A stretch of 37,310 bases of DNA from a virus. The DNA lies in IMG/VR virus record IMGVR_UViG_3300025127_000005, positions 1-37,310 of that record, one strand, 5' to 3'. The notes under the pieces are model-generated. The model was given only the letters and a program-made list of their open reading frames with translations. It did not search any database and was not told the DNA's origin. Below, one piece after another: positions 4,269 to 37,310 of the stretch. A program made the position numbers and the translations under genes. Position 1 is the first letter of the stretch; every line of letters begins with the position of its first letter.

Positions 4269-5181
4269 AACAACCATACTAATTGACGGAGATATATTAG
4301 CGTTTGAATCATCAATCGTAGCACAAGAAAATATACAATGGGAAGAGGAGCTTTGGACTGTACACGCAGATATGGCAGTAGCCAAGAATCGGGTCATTGC
4401 AAGGATAGAACAATTCAAAGATTTACTCAAAGCAGATGAAGTCGTGTTAGCACTTAGTGATCGAGCAAACTTCCGTAGGAAACTATTCCCTGACTACAAA
4501 TCGAATAGAAGAAAGTCTGTATTACCTATTATCTTGCAGCCTATGAGGGAATGGATGATCAATGAACTAAATGCACAACTATGGGCTAACATAGAAGCTG
4601 ATGATATATTAAGTATCTTAGCTACTGAGTATCCTAATTGGAAAGACAAGCGTATTATAGTGTCTATAGACAAGGACTTCAAAGGAGTACCAGGAATCTT
4701 CTATGATTATAACAGAGATGAATATCATGAACCAACAGAAGAGGAAGCAGATAACTTTCATTTGATACAGACATTGATGGGAGATTTTACAGATGGATTT
4801 AGTGGAGTCAAAGGTATTGGTCCTGTTGCAGCTAAAAGTTGGTTGGATAAATATGGATACACTTGGGAATCTGTTGTAGCAATGTACGAGAAGAAAGGAC
4901 AGACAGAACAGGAAGCTTTAATTAATGCGTGGATGGCAAGACTACTAAGAAAGAAAGAGTACAATAAAAAACAAAAACAAATAACAAGATTATGGACACC
5001 GAAGAACTACCAAACAGCGGACAAAAGGAAAATTACATCACTGGTGCACAGCGTGACAGGGCTACTGGACGAGGACGATTCAGCCTTATTCCTCCAATCG
5101 CCCTTCGATCCCTTGCCAAACGATTTGAAGAAGGAGGAAAACTCTACGGAGATAACAACTGGCAAAACGGATTCCCACTAA
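4261..5181 (+). CDS. gp6: 5'-3' exonuclease (T7 gp6-like)
   Basis: The protein has the FEN/5'-3' exonuclease layout. It opens with ILIDGDILAF (acidic D9, D11), then NFRRKLFPDYKSNR, NIEADDILSIL (metal-binding acidic cluster), SIDKDFKGVPG, and a helix-three-turn-helix GDFTDGFSGVKGIGPVAA. It removes RNA primers and degrades host DNA in T7. The length of 306 residues matches T7 gp6 (300). The start is an ATG overlapping the end of the preceding nuclease gene. The last 63 codons (from 4992) are also read in another frame as the start of the DUF5664-type gene, a 190-bp overlap. Confidence 0.93.
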   Translation: MSKTTILIDGDILAFESSIVAQENIQWEEELWTVHADMAVAKNRVIARIEQFKDLLKADEVVLALSDRANFRRKLFPDYKSNRRKSVLPIILQPMREWMINELNAQLWANIEADDILSILATEYPNWKDKRIIVSIDKDFKGVPGIFYDYNRDEYHEPTEEEADNFHLIQTLMGDFTDGFSGVKGIGPVAAKSWLDKYGYTWESVVAMYEKKGQTEQEALINAWMARLLRKKEYNKKQKQITRLWTPKNYQTADKRKITSLVHSVTGLLDEDDSALFLQSPFDPLPNDLKKEENSTEITTGKTDSH

Positions 5182-5354
5182 GTAGATTAATAGACAGCAT
5201 GAGTAGACATCTGATAGCATTAAGTGAAGGAGATAATAGAGAAGATCACGCAGGTGCTATACTGTGGAATGCGAGTGCTTTCCTGTGGACCGAGGATAGG
5301 ATAAGAAAGGGAAGATTACCACAAGAACTAGATGATAGGAGTTATAATAAATGA
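4992..5354 (+). CDS. DUF5664-type protein, putative dATP/dGTP diphosphohydrolase domain
   Basis: This 120-residue protein matches from memory the family annotated as dATP/dGTP diphosphohydrolase N-terminal domain (DUF5664). Hallmarks are GRGRFSLIPPIALRSLA, FEEGGKLYGDNNWQNG, LSRLIDSMSRHL and a late EDHAGAILWNASAFLW with the paired acidic/His residues of an all-alpha nucleotide pyrophosphohydrolase fold. A role in adjusting nucleotide pools during replication is inference. The conserved domain starts at about residue 17, so the overlap with the exonuclease 3' end (4992-5181) cannot be avoided by choosing a later start. It ends in an ATGA junction with the next gene. Confidence 0.75.
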   Translation: MDTEELPNSGQKENYITGAQRDRATGRGRFSLIPPIALRSLAKRFEEGGKLYGDNNWQNGFPLSRLIDSMSRHLIALSEGDNREDHAGAILWNASAFLWTEDRIRKGRLPQELDDRSYNK

Positions 5355-6016: not shown

Positions 6017-6334
6017 ATGCTTCGCACACTCTTAAAAAAGACTTTGCTATCATCTGTTACAACAACAGGAGCTGGCAGTTCATTCTTAGTAGAGCGTTCT
6101 AAGGGTTGGACCTTTGTAATCGCTTCTTCATCAGTAACCACAGGAGGTACGGTAGATATAGAAGCGTACATCGGTGGTGCTTGGTATGTCATTCACTCTC
6201 AAGCTGTTACAGCTAACGGTGCTGTAGTAGTTAGAGATGATCACGGACACTACGAACAGATCAGGGGAAATGTATCAGCTAGAACAGACGGTACTTATAG
6301 CGTCTTTGCAACTGGTTCTACTGATTCTCTGTAA
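6017..6334 (+). CDS. Small beta-rich protein, likely structural
   Basis: A 105-residue protein with alternating beta-type segments rich in Thr, Ser, Val and Gly (GWTFVIASSSVTTGGTVDIE, then AYIGGAWYVIHSQAV) and no signal peptide. Small beta-sandwich proteins of this kind often decorate phage heads or tails, but no family is recognised. It is coupled to the LamG gene by TAATG at 6332-6336, so the two probably form a unit. Confidence 0.7.
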   Translation: MLRTLLKKTLLSSVTTTGAGSSFLVERSKGWTFVIASSSVTTGGTVDIEAYIGGAWYVIHSQAVTANGAVVVRDDHGHYEQIRGNVSARTDGTYSVFATGSTDSL

Positions 6335-7161
6335 TGTCTATCACCTTTGCAGATCAGCTAGGTAAACCTAGCGAGATAACAGCAATGCCCAATCAGTTGG
6401 TCAGACCTGCCTTTGGTACTTTGTATGGATTTGATGTACCTGTAGACGGAACACCAGCATTTTCAAACGGATTCAGCGTAACCCTAGATGGAACAAATGA
6501 ATATATTGACTATGGAAGTCCTGGCATATTTAATTTTGGAACTAGTAATTTAACTTTATCGACTTGGTTTAAGCCTACTGCTTATGCAGGTTCTTTTGTC
6601 ATGTTATTAAGTTCTCACACCACAGGAGCGGAATGGGGACTATTTATTGACAGTAGTAATAACTATAAATTTTATGCAGGTGGTGGATTTTATACAGGAT
6701 CGGGCATAAATTTAAATGCTTGGAACCATGGGGTTGTTGTCCGCGATTCTACTAATATAAACATATATTTAAATGGTGTTAAAAAATCGGTAGGATCAAT
6801 TGGATCGGGTACAAGTATCACTATGGGTGGTTCGGGAGTAGGCACAGGTTCAAAACCTGGTCTCGCTAATGACAGATACGAGGGATTTGTGGATGAATTT
6901 GCTTTATGGCAGTCCGCACTTTCAGACGGTGGTGTAAGTGCAGGGTCAACCGCTGGCGGTGACATAGCCACAATTTACAACAGTGGTATTCCCCACGACC
7001 TTGACACTTTGAGTACTAAACCTACTGCTTGGTGGCGAATGGGTGACTCAGACTCAGGAGCGGGTACAACTGTAACGGATGTTGGGCAAGGAGTTGGCGG
7101 GACTAAACAAAACGCAACTTTAAATAATGGTGCAGCTTTTACAAGTGATGTTCCAAGCTAA
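6334..7161 (+). CDS. LamG / concanavalin A-like lectin domain protein
   Basis: A 275-residue protein with a LamG-type jelly roll from about residue 45 to 210. Characteristic segments are FSVTLDGTNEYIDYGSPGIF, LTLSTWFKPTAYAGSF, AWNHGVVVRDSTNINIYLNG and VDEFALWQSAL. A second short repeat-like segment, PTAWWRMGD, follows. LamG_3 domains bind carbohydrate or protein, and phages use them as virion adhesins. There is no signal peptide, which suits a virion component rather than a secreted protein. The position before the portal gene, away from the tail fibre, is unusual for T7-like phages, so this may be an acquired host-binding or decoration module. Confidence 0.85.
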   Translation: MSITFADQLGKPSEITAMPNQLVRPAFGTLYGFDVPVDGTPAFSNGFSVTLDGTNEYIDYGSPGIFNFGTSNLTLSTWFKPTAYAGSFVMLLSSHTTGAEWGLFIDSSNNYKFYAGGGFYTGSGINLNAWNHGVVVRDSTNINIYLNGVKKSVGSIGSGTSITMGGSGVGTGSKPGLANDRYEGFVDEFALWQSALSDGGVSAGSTAGGDIATIYNSGIPHDLDTLSTKPTAWWRMGDSDSGAGTTVTDVGQGVGGTKQNATLNNGAAFTSDVPS

Positions 7162-28066: not shown

Positions 28067-28405
28067 CTACGCTACTCCTTATTAACAAATCTTTGTGATT
28101 AATATAGGTGCTCCGATAGTTAGTTTAAATACATAAATACTATATAACCCTGACCCTGACAATTAATATGTTTTGGTCTTTAGACACATCTATCCTTAAA
28201 AGTTTTTATTATTAAAAAGGTGTTTAAAGGACAGGGTCTTCTTGTTATTACAAGATAAGAAGGAGAAGAACGAAGTATCGACTTCTTTATTTTAAGTCGC
28301 TATTATTCTTGTAAGACCTTATTGTTTTAAGGAATATACTTTGAGGTTTCCCTTGATAAACATTATAAACGATTTTCAGATTTGTAAAGCCTAAAATTTA
28401 ACATT
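28067..28405 (+). other. Non-coding region after terminase, possible structured RNA or terminator
   Basis: No credible gene is visible in these 339 bp. There is a tandem CCCTGA at 28148-28159. Its GACCCTG (28152-28158) is complementary to CAGGGTC (28232-28238), which would close a loop of about 73 bases containing an A/T hairpin TTTTTATTATTAAAAA. Just after it is a hairpin CTTGTTATTACAAG (28241-28254) flanked by TCTT and AAGA. These could end late transcription, but there is no clean T-run. Confidence 0.45.
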
Positions 28406-28606
28406 ATGGACATAGATACTCAGACAGACTTATTAACCAACGACTTGTGTAACTTAATAAACCGCTATAAAAGGGAGTTTGAATTGAATGACCAAACAAT
28501 CATAGGAGTTTTGGAGTTCGTTAAATACGACTTATTAGCCACCAGTGTTATAGAGTTTGATCCAGACTTTGACTTAGAAGAAGATAACGAAGATGATGAA
28601 CAGTAG
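28406..28606 (+). CDS. Small acidic hypothetical protein
   Basis: A 66-residue acidic protein: an N-terminal helical part (DLLTNDLCNLINRYKREFEL), a hydrophobic middle (IIGVLEFVKYDLLATSVIEF) and a strongly acidic tail (DPDFDLEEDNEDDEQ). It stands alone between two non-coding stretches after an A/T-rich leader without Shine-Dalgarno. The acidic tail could mimic nucleic acid as in some early phage inhibitors, but there is no sequence evidence for this. Its timing, early or late, is not clear. Confidence 0.7.
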   Translation: MDIDTQTDLLTNDLCNLINRYKREFELNDQTIIGVLEFVKYDLLATSVIEFDPDFDLEEDNEDDEQ

Positions 28607-28683
28607 TTTGAGGCTATTAGATTTTAATTTTAGTTGAAAAAATTTGAGGGGGTTACGCTATATACAACACCGTAAAATACCCC

Positions 28684-28719
28684 TATGCCACCCTATAAAA
28701 ATAAGTATATGGCGGCATA
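28684..28719 (+). other. GC-rich hairpin in A/T-rich background
   Basis: TATGCC at 28684-28689 pairs with GGCATA at 28714-28719. Next to it CC pairs with GG across one mismatch, around an A/T loop of 18 bases. It stands out from the surrounding A/T-rich sequence. No T-run follows directly, so it may be a regulatory or processing element rather than a simple terminator. Confidence 0.4.
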
Positions 28720-28879
28720 TTGTAAAATATTGTTAAAATGTATTTTCATAAATCTCTGGTAATCAATGTACTTATAAAAATAATTCGTACAATACTGATT
28801 ATGTCTAATTACTGATCATCAACGACTTAGGTAATAATCTATCGTTATTGCAAGTAGTTTGCATTAAGATAATGTTATT

Positions 28880-28917
28880 GATGTAATGACATCTTGAAAG
28901 CATGACGTCATGATGTC
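28880..28917. repeat. Palindrome cluster
   Basis: Two adjacent dyads: GATGTAATGACATC (28880-28893, five-base arms) and the perfect 12-bp palindrome CATGACGTCATG (28901-28912). The second runs into GATGTC (28912-28917), the complement of GACATC in the first. The nested arrangement looks like a protein-binding or cruciform site in the presumed control region. Confidence 0.55.
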
Positions 28918-28957
28918 TTTACTTCACTTGTAAATTTGTATTTCTTTTTTCGTTTAT

Positions 28958-29043
28958 TTTGATTAATCAAAGTTTGTAACAAGTACTAGTCAAAGTCTTT
29001 ATTCACTATCAATCAAGTTCTCTACTTTGATTAGTCAAAGTCT
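28958..29043. repeat. Repeated TTGATTARTCAA dyads, possible operator or iteron array
   Basis: TTTGATTAATCAAA (28958-28971) is a perfect palindrome. ACTTTGATTAGTCAAAGT (29024-29041) is a 7-4-7 dyad of the same family. TAGTCAAAGTCT occurs twice exactly (28987-28998 and 29032-29043), and AATCAAGTT near 29011 is a further half-like site. The spacing suggests binding of a dimeric regulator or an origin-like array just upstream of the early genes. Confidence 0.55.
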
Positions 29044-29189
29044 ATTGAACACCGCTTAAACACTACAAATCATCCTTTAATCTTTTCATAAAGTATTACC
29101 AAGCATAACTTTACAACAAATGTTTTCGCTTTAACTTTAAAAAAACTATATCTTTAAAACTTTTTTTATATTTTTTATCTTATTGATTA

Positions 29190-29217
29190 TTAACACTTTA
29201 TCTACTGATTTTATAAA
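29190..29217 (+). promoter_or_regulatory. Candidate host sigma70-type early promoter
   Basis: TTAACA (29190-29195) and TATAAA (29212-29217) are separated by 16 bp, about 80 bp before the first early gene. The match to TTGACA/TATAAT is moderate, and the region is so A/T-rich that chance matches are likely. If the host is a Bacteroidota member this consensus would not apply. Confidence 0.35.
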
Positions 29218-29298
29218 TAGGGCTATTGACAGTGATGATATAGTTGAAATCAAACCAAGTTTATTAATTACAACCAATAATAAAATGATAGAAAACAC

Positions 29299-33930: not shown

Positions 33931-34156
33931 CCTAGAAGATTACGATTGCAACGAGGTTATTAGTCAATCACTTGCCTTTGAAGTAGCTGAAGCATATGAA
34001 AAATTTTGGAGTAACACTAAGTTAGGTTATGATAAATACGGAAATATTATTCGAACAAAAGAATTGCGTGTCCGTCCTCAAACTTTTCGTGAATTTTATT
34101 TTGGAAATAAGGAAGCGATTGAAAAGATAAATTTATACAACGAAAAGAAACAATGA
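33920..34156 (+). CDS. Small early protein upstream of RNA polymerase
   Basis: A 78-residue protein (EDYDCNEVISQSLAFEVAEA; YEKFWSNTKLGYDKYGNIIR; TFREFYFGNKEAIEKINLYN). It overlaps the previous gene by 11 bp and the RNA polymerase gene by ATGA (34153-34156), so polymerase translation is probably coupled to it. No family is recognised. Confidence 0.7.
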   Translation: MMSSLEDYDCNEVISQSLAFEVAEAYEKFWSNTKLGYDKYGNIIRTKELRVRPQTFREFYFGNKEAIEKINLYNEKKQ

Positions 34157-36513
34157 TATCTTTAATGATTCAATGGGGAAAAGCTCGATATAGAAAAGCC
34201 CAAGAAATATATAAGAAACAAGGATATAACTCAGAATTACCTGCTTATAAAAAATTAGGAAGGGAAGTACATATTCCTATTGAACAAGCGATACATAAAT
34301 TTTTTGAAGATAACCTTAGACCTAACGCACCTGTACCTGTTTGGTTGCCTTTTATATGGGACTTGGAACCTGATGTGGTAGCGTTTTTGGGTGTGAAAGT
34401 ATTGTTTGATATTTTACCCAAAGAACCTTACATATCCGAAGCTTCTTTTCATGTGGCTAAAGCTTTGGAAGATGAAGTAAGAGTCCGCTATTTTAAAGAA
34501 TATGTAACTCAGAGTGACTGGTTATTATTAAAGCACGATCAAAAGGATGTTCTTACAAGAAATAGATTTGTGAATAAATTCTGGGACAAAGAAAGGAAAT
34601 ACCACAAACAGGGAAGGTATCAGAGATTTGAACTATGGAGTAAGCGTAACAAGATCATGCTGGGTTCTTGGCTTATTGAACTGATAAGGATGCAAACTAA
34701 TTTATTTCATGTTAAAGTTAAGACTTCGATGGGCAGCACGAAACGCAAAGCTATAGTACCCAACAAAGATCTGTACGCATGGGTTAATAAATACGATAAG
34801 AATTGTGAAGTTATCCGTCCGTTCTATTTAGCTACACCTGAGCCTCCTATTGACTGGGTATCTAACTATGGAGGAGGATATAATAGTGAGGGACTTCCTA
34901 CCTTGCCTATCATGAAGATAAAGAATAACGATGGCATAAAACATCGTGACTTGTCCGTAGCTTATGAGCCTCTCAACCGATTGCAACGAGTAGCTTGGAA
35001 GATCAATCCTAAGATGTTAAACCTTATGAACTGGGCGTGGTCCAGGGACTTAAGTATAGGAGGGATGGAGAAGAGCGAATTGTTAGAACCTCTTGATGTT
35101 ATACCTGACTTAGCAGACAGAGACCCAGAAGGATTCACTGAATGGAAGCGTAAGCAAAGAGCAATCTATGAGTTCAATTTACGGAGTAACGGACAACGAA
35201 TGCGTTGTTTAAAGATACTTAACATAGCAAAACGCTACGCTGATATGGATAAGTTCTACTTTCCTTATCAAATGGATTACAGAGGAAGAGTGTATTCAAT
35301 ACCTAGCTATGTAAACCCACAATCATGTGATTTTGGAAGGAGTGCTTTACAATTTTCTGAAGGAGTGCCTATCAACAACGATGAAGACAGTAGATGGTTA
35401 AGGATTCACGGAGCTAATGTGTTTGGAATGAAGGGCAGCTACGAGAAAAGATTAGCTTGGATAGAACAAAAGGAAAAGTTGATCCTTGAATGTGCTGATG
35501 ATCCTTGTGAGAATAACTGGTGGCAATCAGCGAGTGATCCTTGGGCTTTTATACACTTTTGTTTTGAATATGGAGCTTTTAAGAAGCACGGATGGGGTTT
35601 TGAAACTAGGTTACCTTGCCATATGGATGCGAGTTGTAATGGAATACAGATTTTATCTTTGCTTACAAGAGATATGGAATCAGGAAAATATGTTAATCTT
35701 TTACCTGACCAGAAACCACAAGATATATACCAAAAAGTAGCAGATCAAGTGCACGATAAACTGATGAAAGATAAGAGTAAGAACAGTTTAGCTGGCGACT
35801 GGTTAAAGTTTGGAATAGACCGCAGCTTCACCAAGAAGATAGTAATGTGTAAACCGTTTGGTATGAATGGGTATACAAGTAAAGATGCACTTGAAGAAGC
35901 TGTTTCTAAAAGATTGAAAGAGGGACTAGGCAGTCCATTTAGTAAGCAGGATTTTAACAACGCTATGATTTACCTTGCTTCTTTAATTAACGACAAAGCG
36001 AACAAGCTTATAGAACCACACATTGAATTGATGAAGTGGTTTAAAAGAGTAGCAAGGACAGATAAAGCTTTGTCTTGGACTACTCCTTTTGGACTGGAAA
36101 TTGTACAGGCTTTGTACGATCAAACACTAGTCAAAGTAAATAGCATTCTTAATATGCAAAACACTATTCTTACTTTTAATAACAAACAAACAGGTGTTAG
36201 CAGTAAGAGAATGGCAAGAGCTATTGTACCTAACTTTATTCATAGTATTGACGCAAGTGTGATGATGGAATTAGCTTGCAAAAGTAATTATTCTATTGCA
36301 AGTATACATGATAGCTTTGCAACGCAAAGTCCGAACGCACCGAAGATGCACCAACAATTAAGAGAGATTTATGAAGTACATTTTAGCACTGACCTCATTA
36401 AAAAGTTCAAGGATGAGGTAGAGGCACAACGAGATTGTACACTGGAAGACAGCCCAGAACTTGGCACATTAGATGTGTCGGCACTCAACGACTGCCAGTA
36501 TATATTCTCATAA
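34153..36513 (+). CDS. gp1: Single-subunit RNA polymerase (T7 gp1-like) with Phe at the Tyr639 site
   Basis: A 786-residue polymerase (T7 883; the N-terminal part is shorter). MDYRGRVYSIPSYVNPQS matches T7 MDWRGRVY. Motif A is MDASCNGIQILS with catalytic D492. The O helix reads R557-S-F-T-K561-K-I-V-M-C-K-P-F569-G, aligning without gaps to T7 R627...K631...Y639-G, so Tyr639 is Phe here. H697 (NFIHSIDAS, T7 H784) and H719-D720 (SIHDSF, T7 H811-D812) are present. It should transcribe the replication and late genes from phage promoters. Expression is probably by host polymerase with the early genes. The terminus is IFS rather than FA-F/A. Confidence 0.96.
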   Translation: MISLMIQWGKARYRKAQEIYKKQGYNSELPAYKKLGREVHIPIEQAIHKFFEDNLRPNAPVPVWLPFIWDLEPDVVAFLGVKVLFDILPKEPYISEASFHVAKALEDEVRVRYFKEYVTQSDWLLLKHDQKDVLTRNRFVNKFWDKERKYHKQGRYQRFELWSKRNKIMLGSWLIELIRMQTNLFHVKVKTSMGSTKRKAIVPNKDLYAWVNKYDKNCEVIRPFYLATPEPPIDWVSNYGGGYNSEGLPTLPIMKIKNNDGIKHRDLSVAYEPLNRLQRVAWKINPKMLNLMNWAWSRDLSIGGMEKSELLEPLDVIPDLADRDPEGFTEWKRKQRAIYEFNLRSNGQRMRCLKILNIAKRYADMDKFYFPYQMDYRGRVYSIPSYVNPQSCDFGRSALQFSEGVPINNDEDSRWLRIHGANVFGMKGSYEKRLAWIEQKEKLILECADDPCENNWWQSASDPWAFIHFCFEYGAFKKHGWGFETRLPCHMDASCNGIQILSLLTRDMESGKYVNLLPDQKPQDIYQKVADQVHDKLMKDKSKNSLAGDWLKFGIDRSFTKKIVMCKPFGMNGYTSKDALEEAVSKRLKEGLGSPFSKQDFNNAMIYLASLINDKANKLIEPHIELMKWFKRVARTDKALSWTTPFGLEIVQALYDQTLVKVNSILNMQNTILTFNNKQTGVSSKRMARAIVPNFIHSIDASVMMELACKSNYSIASIHDSFATQSPNAPKMHQQLREIYEVHFSTDLIKKFKDEVEAQRDCTLEDSPELGTLDVSALNDCQYIFS

Positions 36514-36533: not shown

Positions 36534-37169
36534 ATGGCAATAAAATCGAGAAAGAGAGAAGAATCAATAACAACAGATATAGGTATTGCTCAATATCCTT
36601 GGGTTAACAATCCAAGTACAAAGTGGGGAGAAGGAGGTGAGTATAGCTGTAATATTATATTAACAAAAGAACAAGGAAAGGCTATCATCAAAAAGCTAGA
36701 ACCTATTCTAAAAAATAAACAAAAGGAACAAGCGGAGGAGTCTGGTAAGAAAGTAAAGACTTATGAATTACCTATAGAATTAGAGGGAGATACTTATGTA
36801 TTGAAAGCTAAGTTGAAACCAGTCAATGGTAAGCGTAAGGACGGTGTTGAGTACACAAAATCACTGGGTCTTTTTGATTCTAAAGGAAATCCTTGGGACA
36901 GGTCAGTAATTATTAGAGGCGGGTCGAAGATACGCTTAAATGTAAGACCTAAAACTTGGTTCTCTCCGTTGTTGGGAGTAGGTGTTTCACTAGAGTTATT
37001 GGCTGTTCAAGTAATTGAGTTGGCAGATGGAGAACTATCCAGTCAAGCAGCAGAATCTTTTGGCTTCACTGAAGTTGAAGGAGGATATGTTAACGGAGGT
37101 GAAACCCTTGACCAAGCTTTTGATGCGGAAGAAGAAGAAGAACAAGACATTATCAAAGCAGACTTTTAG
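36534..37169 (+). CDS. gp2.5: Single-stranded DNA-binding protein (T7 gp2.5-like)
   Basis: A 211-residue OB-fold SSB (T7 232) directly after the RNA polymerase. YPWVNNPSTKWGEGGEYSCN, LKAKLKPVNGKRKDGVEYTK and SVIIRGGSKIRLNVRPKTWF match the gp2.5 pattern, and LGVGVSLELLAVQVIEL follows. The C-terminus is the diagnostic acidic tail EEEEEQDIIKADF, ending in Phe as T7 does, which binds polymerase and helicase. The ATG at 36534 after an A-rich leader is used; an upstream extension into the polymerase gene is not protein-like. The acidic-tail codons overlap the start of endonuclease I. Confidence 0.92.
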   Translation: MAIKSRKREESITTDIGIAQYPWVNNPSTKWGEGGEYSCNIILTKEQGKAIIKKLEPILKNKQKEQAEESGKKVKTYELPIELEGDTYVLKAKLKPVNGKRKDGVEYTKSLGLFDSKGNPWDRSVIIRGGSKIRLNVRPKTWFSPLLGVGVSLELLAVQVIELADGELSSQAAESFGFTEVEGGYVNGGETLDQAFDAEEEEEQDIIKADF

Positions 37170-37310
37170 GTCTGGATTTGAACAGAGAATAGCATCACAA
37201 CTAAGACGCTGTGGTATAAAGTATACATACGAATCTTTAGTCATTGAGTACGAGCGACTTAGCACTTATACTCCTGACTTCATTCTTCCCAATGGAATTA
37301 TTATTGAAAC
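37123..37310 (+). CDS. gp3: Endonuclease I (T7 gp3-like), 5' part
   Basis: This is the start of the endonuclease continued at position 1. From ATG 37123 the protein reads MRKKKKNKTLSKQTFRSGFE then QRIASQLRRCGIKYTYES. T7 endonuclease I has FRSGLEDKVSKQLESKGIKF at the same place, and catalytic E20 keeps its exact number. The start lies 47 bp inside the SSB gene, so the same GAAGAAG tract encodes the acidic SSB tail in one frame and a Lys run in the other. The window ends at codon 63; the last 127 bases repeat positions 1-127. Confidence 0.9.
   Translation, partial: MRKKKKNKTLSKQTFRSGFEQRIASQLRRCGIKYTYESLVIEYERLSTYTPDFILPNGIIIE
37184..37310. repeat. Right copy of 127-bp terminal identity
   Basis: Identical to positions 1-127. 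Joining the contig by removing one copy restores a continuous endonuclease I gene and gives a closed molecule of 37,183 bp. This supports completeness of the genome but not the location of its packaged ends. Confidence 0.9.

Follow-up and report, generated by a model that had tools for sequence, protein, structure and literature searches.

The RNA polymerase encoded in the window (the whole 37,310-nucleotide stretch of viral DNA that was analysed) naturally carries a phenylalanine, F569, at the position of T7 Tyr639; alignment confirms this substitution, which is rare and fixed in its clade. The change from Tyr to Phe at this column arose several times in nature. Since the same change weakens ribose discrimination in the T7, Syn5 and KP34 polymerases, altered sugar selection by the window polymerase may reasonably be inferred. 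We are thus dealing with a real case of a fixed and recurrent natural variant of a known enzyme, found in a co-varying background that can be tested, the consequence for substrate use being predicted.

The polymerase gene and its O-helix

The window polymerase gives a near full-length match to T7 RNA polymerase (phmmer E 2.3e-85, to 1aro) and belongs to the Pfam family RNA_pol PF00940 (269 bits for a cut-off of 22) as well as to PHROG 414 (E 2e-181). The core residues D537, Y571, R627, K631, H811 and D812 (T7 numbering) are all kept. The Tyr at column 639, which is typical of the family, is absent and F569 stands in its place; because mutants of the Y639F type are active RNA polymerases, the window polymerase is regarded as a variant within the T7-type family rather than excluded from it. 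The features considered are the following.

34153..36513, + strand: T7-type single-subunit RNA polymerase, an ORF of 786 aa (homology and family profiles)
35419..35442, + strand: shortened loop VFGMKGSY, T7 D471 missing, K427 (T7 K472) kept (alignment)
35626..35628, + strand: D492, equivalent to T7 D537, catalytic Asp (alignment)
35821..35874, + strand: O-helix and following turn, R557 to Y574, equivalent to T7 R627 to F644 (gapless alignment)
35836..35838, + strand: K562, equivalent to T7 R632, a ribose contact at pre-insertion in T7 (alignment)
35857..35859, + strand: F569, codon TTT, equivalent to T7 Y639 (alignment; fixed in the clade)
36241..36243, + strand: H697, equivalent to T7 H784, second ribose contact, conserved (alignment)
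36310..36312, + strand: D720, equivalent to T7 D812, catalytic Asp (alignment)
36534..37169, + strand: gp2.5-like single-stranded DNA-binding protein, directly downstream of the polymerase (PHROG 112)

The O-helix of the window polymerase, RSFTKKIVMCKPFGMNGYTS, aligns with that of T7, RSVTKRSVMTLAYGSKEFGF, with no gaps from R627 to G640, and F569 falls on Y639. This placement of column 639 is anchored on R627, K631, M635 and G640, which vary little or not at all across the sampled family. The alignment bears out the initial annotation, which had proposed F569 for Y639 in a gapless O-helix and had listed R557, K561, H697 and D720 as conserved; these four align to R627, K631, H784 and D812. Y574 had been put forward as the residue that might be the true equivalent of Y639, which would have undone the proposal; this candidate was rejected, as the gapless alignment puts Y574 on T7 F644. 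That column is occupied by Tyr in 54 of 121 Y639-type enzymes, and a refutation built on Y574 fails on sequence because Y574 lies in a column that is often Tyr in Y types.

The replacement of the preceding T-L-A by C-K-P, also pointed out at that stage, is correct with respect to T7 but uninformative, since it is not specific to polymerases with Phe. P638 is the most frequent residue in Y-type enzymes (82/121), C636 and K637 are found in 9/121 and 4/121 of them respectively, Y-type relatives with VKPYGG exist, and K637-P638 stands alongside Tyr in L323 and L324. C-K-P was also considered as a compensating change and rejected, as it occurs with Tyr and is absent from the other F lineages. Elsewhere in the active site, at the column of T7 G542, an Ala replaces the otherwise invariant Gly in 3 of 21 F-clade enzymes, including L019, in which the motif DASCNGIQ reads DASCNAIQ.

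Distribution and separate origins of Phe at column 639

A census of column 639, the check that the initial annotation had proposed, gave Phe in 50 of 50 close IMG/VR relatives covering the column and Tyr in all 121 non-redundant polymerases outside the F lineages. Phe is fixed in every clade relative found, at 52-95% identity. For the window and L001, its nearest relative, dN is 0.028 and dS 0.47, a dN/dS of about 0.06 that corresponds to strong purifying selection, and Phe persists between relatives at dS of 1 or more. In 55 distinct contexts the Phe codon is TTT 47 times and TTC 8 times. A sequencing or alignment artefact is extremely improbable given the dozens of separate contigs, the two synonymous codons and the gapless anchored alignment, and nothing was found in its favour.

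A first IMG/VR scan, restricted to the pattern R..TK..VM, suggested that Phe was unique to one clade, and this was overturned by a less restricted scan with the pattern W, G, R, K, M, F, G at fixed spacing. The wider pattern yielded 32 newly retrieved polymerase loci with Phe, including three lineages outside the window clade, namely ten loci of type RSWVKAAVMHTPFGSTSRTV and the single contigs L419 and L431. With Tyr in the same pattern, Tyr was found in 95 of 95 newly retrieved loci among the matches listed, and since Phe was searched for, the F and Y locus counts are not natural frequencies. The four F lineages considered are the window clade, the L415 lineage, L419 and L431, the last two being represented by one contig each on long branches.

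With the O-helix columns left out of the tree, the window clade forms one supported branch in which Phe was gained once. The trees require four changes at column 639, and constraining all F rows together was rejected with an AU p of 1.4e-20. Three gains are obtained by midpoint-rooted reconstruction; a reversion may account for one of the four changes.

The co-varying background and the proposed mechanism

At pre-insertion in T7 RNA polymerase, R632 and a bridge formed by metal C and Y639 read the ribose, and D471, K472, R627 and K631 read the triphosphate with metal B (PMC9836923). The flexible loop of residues 469-475 carries K472, which assists pyrophosphate exit (PMC4658072). The window clade has one residue fewer in this loop, with D471 missing and K472 kept. 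None of the 180 readable F loci has D471, compared to 265 of 289 Y loci that have it; of 55 columns conserved in Y enzymes, only this one and 639 itself differ in every one of the four F lineages. Within the Y background, 14% of the branch length is D471-less, and the chance of finding all four F lineages without D471 is about 4e-4 by a rough branch-length calculation. An independent-pairs test of Phe against D471 loss had four pairs only, too few to reach significance. D471 has also been lost without Phe in about 10% of Y-type rows, and the Y639-type polymerases L340, L382, L469, L444 and L459, which are without it, provide natural controls for the epistasis idea.

At the R632 column the window F clade has K, R and Q in 14, 6 and 1 enzymes respectively, compared to R in 113 of 121 Y-type enzymes; the L415 lineage has A or S, L419 has P and L431 has K. 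R632 is missing in most F polymerases and retained in part of the window clade. Furthermore, the Y-type enzymes that are sister to the window clade (L469, L444, L459) and to the L415 lineage (L203, L463 and the cultured cyanophage S-SRP02) are already without D471 and R632, which argues that in these two lineages the loss of D471 and R632 came before the change from Tyr to Phe. His is present at H784 in every F locus covering that column, and the catalytic residues are kept in F polymerases. The F lineages have lost 2-9 conserved residues compared to a median of 2 in Y rows, so that general divergence plays some part. The suggestion of the initial annotation that there could be compensation elsewhere holds as far as a background without D471 and mostly without R632 is concerned; H784, the other ribose contact, is retained.

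From these alignments and the behaviour of engineered enzymes, we consider it probable that the window encodes a functional T7-type polymerase in which the ribose-gate Tyr has been permanently replaced by Phe within a remodelled pre-insertion site, and which has weak ribose discrimination. The check on the 2'-OH by the Y639 hydroxyl and metal C would be absent and, with this check gone, pre-insertion discrimination against dNTPs and against 2'-F and 2'-NH2 NTPs would be weak, as in engineered Y639F enzymes. H784, at insertion, and the cellular excess of rNTP over dNTP would provide the residual discrimination. Prior loss of D471 and R632 may have rendered the Tyr hydroxyl less useful, and the change to Phe tolerable or favoured. 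In T7, Y639F reduces the discrimination of rATP over dATP from about 120-140 fold to 5-7 fold while activity is only modestly lowered (PMC9836923). KP34 Y603F has lowered ribose discrimination with NMP incorporation at the wild-type level (PMC6834552), and the Tyr to Phe change in the Syn5 polymerase lowers discrimination against 2'-F-dNTPs (PMC4538805).

These same activities could be read as a sign that Phe is near-neutral and drifted in without effect on phage biology: mutants of the Y639F type transcribe well, KP34 Y603F does so at the wild-type incorporation level and T7 Y639F with a modest drop, and cellular rNTPs are far above dNTPs. Such drift appears rather unlikely, given that Tyr in 121/121 other polymerases indicates selection against Phe in the usual background, that Phe is fixed at dS of 1 or more and that it is confined to D471-less enzymes. 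Another residue of the F clade, for example K567, M571, N572 or Y574, could also restore discrimination and make substrate selection equal to that of T7. The residues K637, M641 and N642 (T7 numbering) do not vary within the F clade and are seldom or never found outside it, and H784 is retained; however, K637-P638 is found with Tyr in L323/L324, column 644 often holds Tyr in Y types, the other three F lineages lack these residues in common with the F clade and no shared replacement hydroxyl was seen, so that we regard such a restoration as unlikely.

Extending the reading of weakened ribose discrimination to the family, we suggest tentatively, at somewhat less than even confidence, that the pre-insertion checkpoint is an evolvable module: in several lineages D471 and R632 would have been lost, then Tyr replaced by Phe, giving broad sugar tolerance with reliance on H784 and on nucleotide pools. 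The association of Phe with D471 loss suggests that the phosphate/metal B side of the pre-insertion site and its ribose side interact epistatically. Y639F is the usual engineered change for producing 2'-modified RNA. Enzymes with a native Phe and a co-varying background provide natural tests of the mechanism and evolution of ribose selection, and the native-Phe polymerases are candidate ready-made catalysts for modified RNA.

Genome context and comparison with known systems

The window is a complete T7-like phage genome, with a perfect 127-bp direct repeat (1-127 and 37184-37310) and an endonuclease I gene split across its ends, features which indicate a complete genome, either circularly permuted or terminally repeated. 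Its core genes encode endonuclease I, primase-helicase, PolA, exonuclease, connector, scaffold, capsid, tail tubes, internal virion protein, T7-type tail fibre and terminase. The phage falls within the Autographiviridae on the basis of its RNAP, SSB, endonuclease I, primase-helicase, PolA, connector, T7-type tail-fibre N-terminus and terminase.

The initial annotation had also raised the use of unusual nucleotides, for which no supporting gene was found. An adaptation of the polymerase to unusual nucleotides, or to synthesis of mixed RNA/DNA, would agree only with the chemistry of Y639F mutants and with a small protein encoded at 4992-5354, which matches the dATP/dGTP diphosphohydrolase N-terminal domain PF18909. 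Against it, no PurZ, ribonucleotide reductase or modification gene is present among the assigned ORFs, and no large unassigned ORF is left in the window to encode PurZ or ribonucleotide reductase; the DNA polymerase motif B, KTFIYGFLYG, is ordinary; and the Y-type Roseobacter CRP phages also have a MazG-like gene, at a place similar to that of 4992-5354. We therefore hold this adaptation to be very unlikely. The CRP phages carry a ribonucleotide reductase and a thymidylate synthase, neither of which was found in the window.

Other observations concern the genome as a whole. A protein with a concanavalin A-like lectin domain (Laminin_G_3) is encoded at 6334-7161, between the replication genes and the connector. 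Although the genome is dense elsewhere, the long stretch 28067-29298 holds a single small ORF (28406-28606); no tRNA was found. Shine-Dalgarno-like 4-mers precede only 4 of 37 gene starts (about 6 expected by chance), and the regions upstream of gene starts are A-rich, as is known for Bacteroidota; together, the weak Shine-Dalgarno signal and the A-rich upstream regions are a possible hint toward a host in this group. A search for a phage promoter in the intergenic regions of the window gave nothing above shuffles.

The closest named genomes are Ayaqvirus MedDCM-OCT-S45-C18 and the Roseobacter CRP phages, which share the RNAP-SSB-endonuclease I order of the window and show 59-65% identity to it in terminase, 45-60% in capsid and 44-51% in DNA polymerase. 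Their RNA polymerases are 28-31% identical to that of the window and have Tyr at column 639. The idea that this divergence came from a replaced RNAP gene found no support, as RNAP is the most divergent core protein, or among the most divergent, in other compared phage pairs too.

In the literature, Tyr at column 639 is described as highly conserved and its change to Phe as an engineered one; in a metagenomic mining study (2026), enzyme No. 1575 has Tyr and His at the 639 and 784 places (PMC13029058). No report of a natural Phe at this column was found in the literature searched, most subscription papers lying outside it. There was no cultured phage among the F-type polymerases found, and a scan of genome contigs matched only distant Y-type polymerases.

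The closest parallel is found at phage PolA position 526, in its recurrent Y/F/L variation (T7 DNA polymerase numbering; 762 in E. coli PolA), which alters sugar selection (PMC13228545) and is likewise a natural Tyr/Phe switch in the O-helix of a phage polymerase, in another enzyme and at another position. The window PolA has Tyr at position 526. Engineered T7 Y639F presents the same change at the same O-helix position, with H784 and the catalytic residues kept in both enzymes. In contrast, the Phe of the window polymerase is natural and fixed, in an enzyme of about 28% identity to T7 which adds the loss of D471 and the changes R632K, L637K, S641M and K642N. Similarly, Syn5 Y564F and KP34 Y603F are engineered Tyr to Phe changes at the homologous column in enzymes whose wild types have Tyr, whereas in the window polymerase Phe is the wild-type residue.
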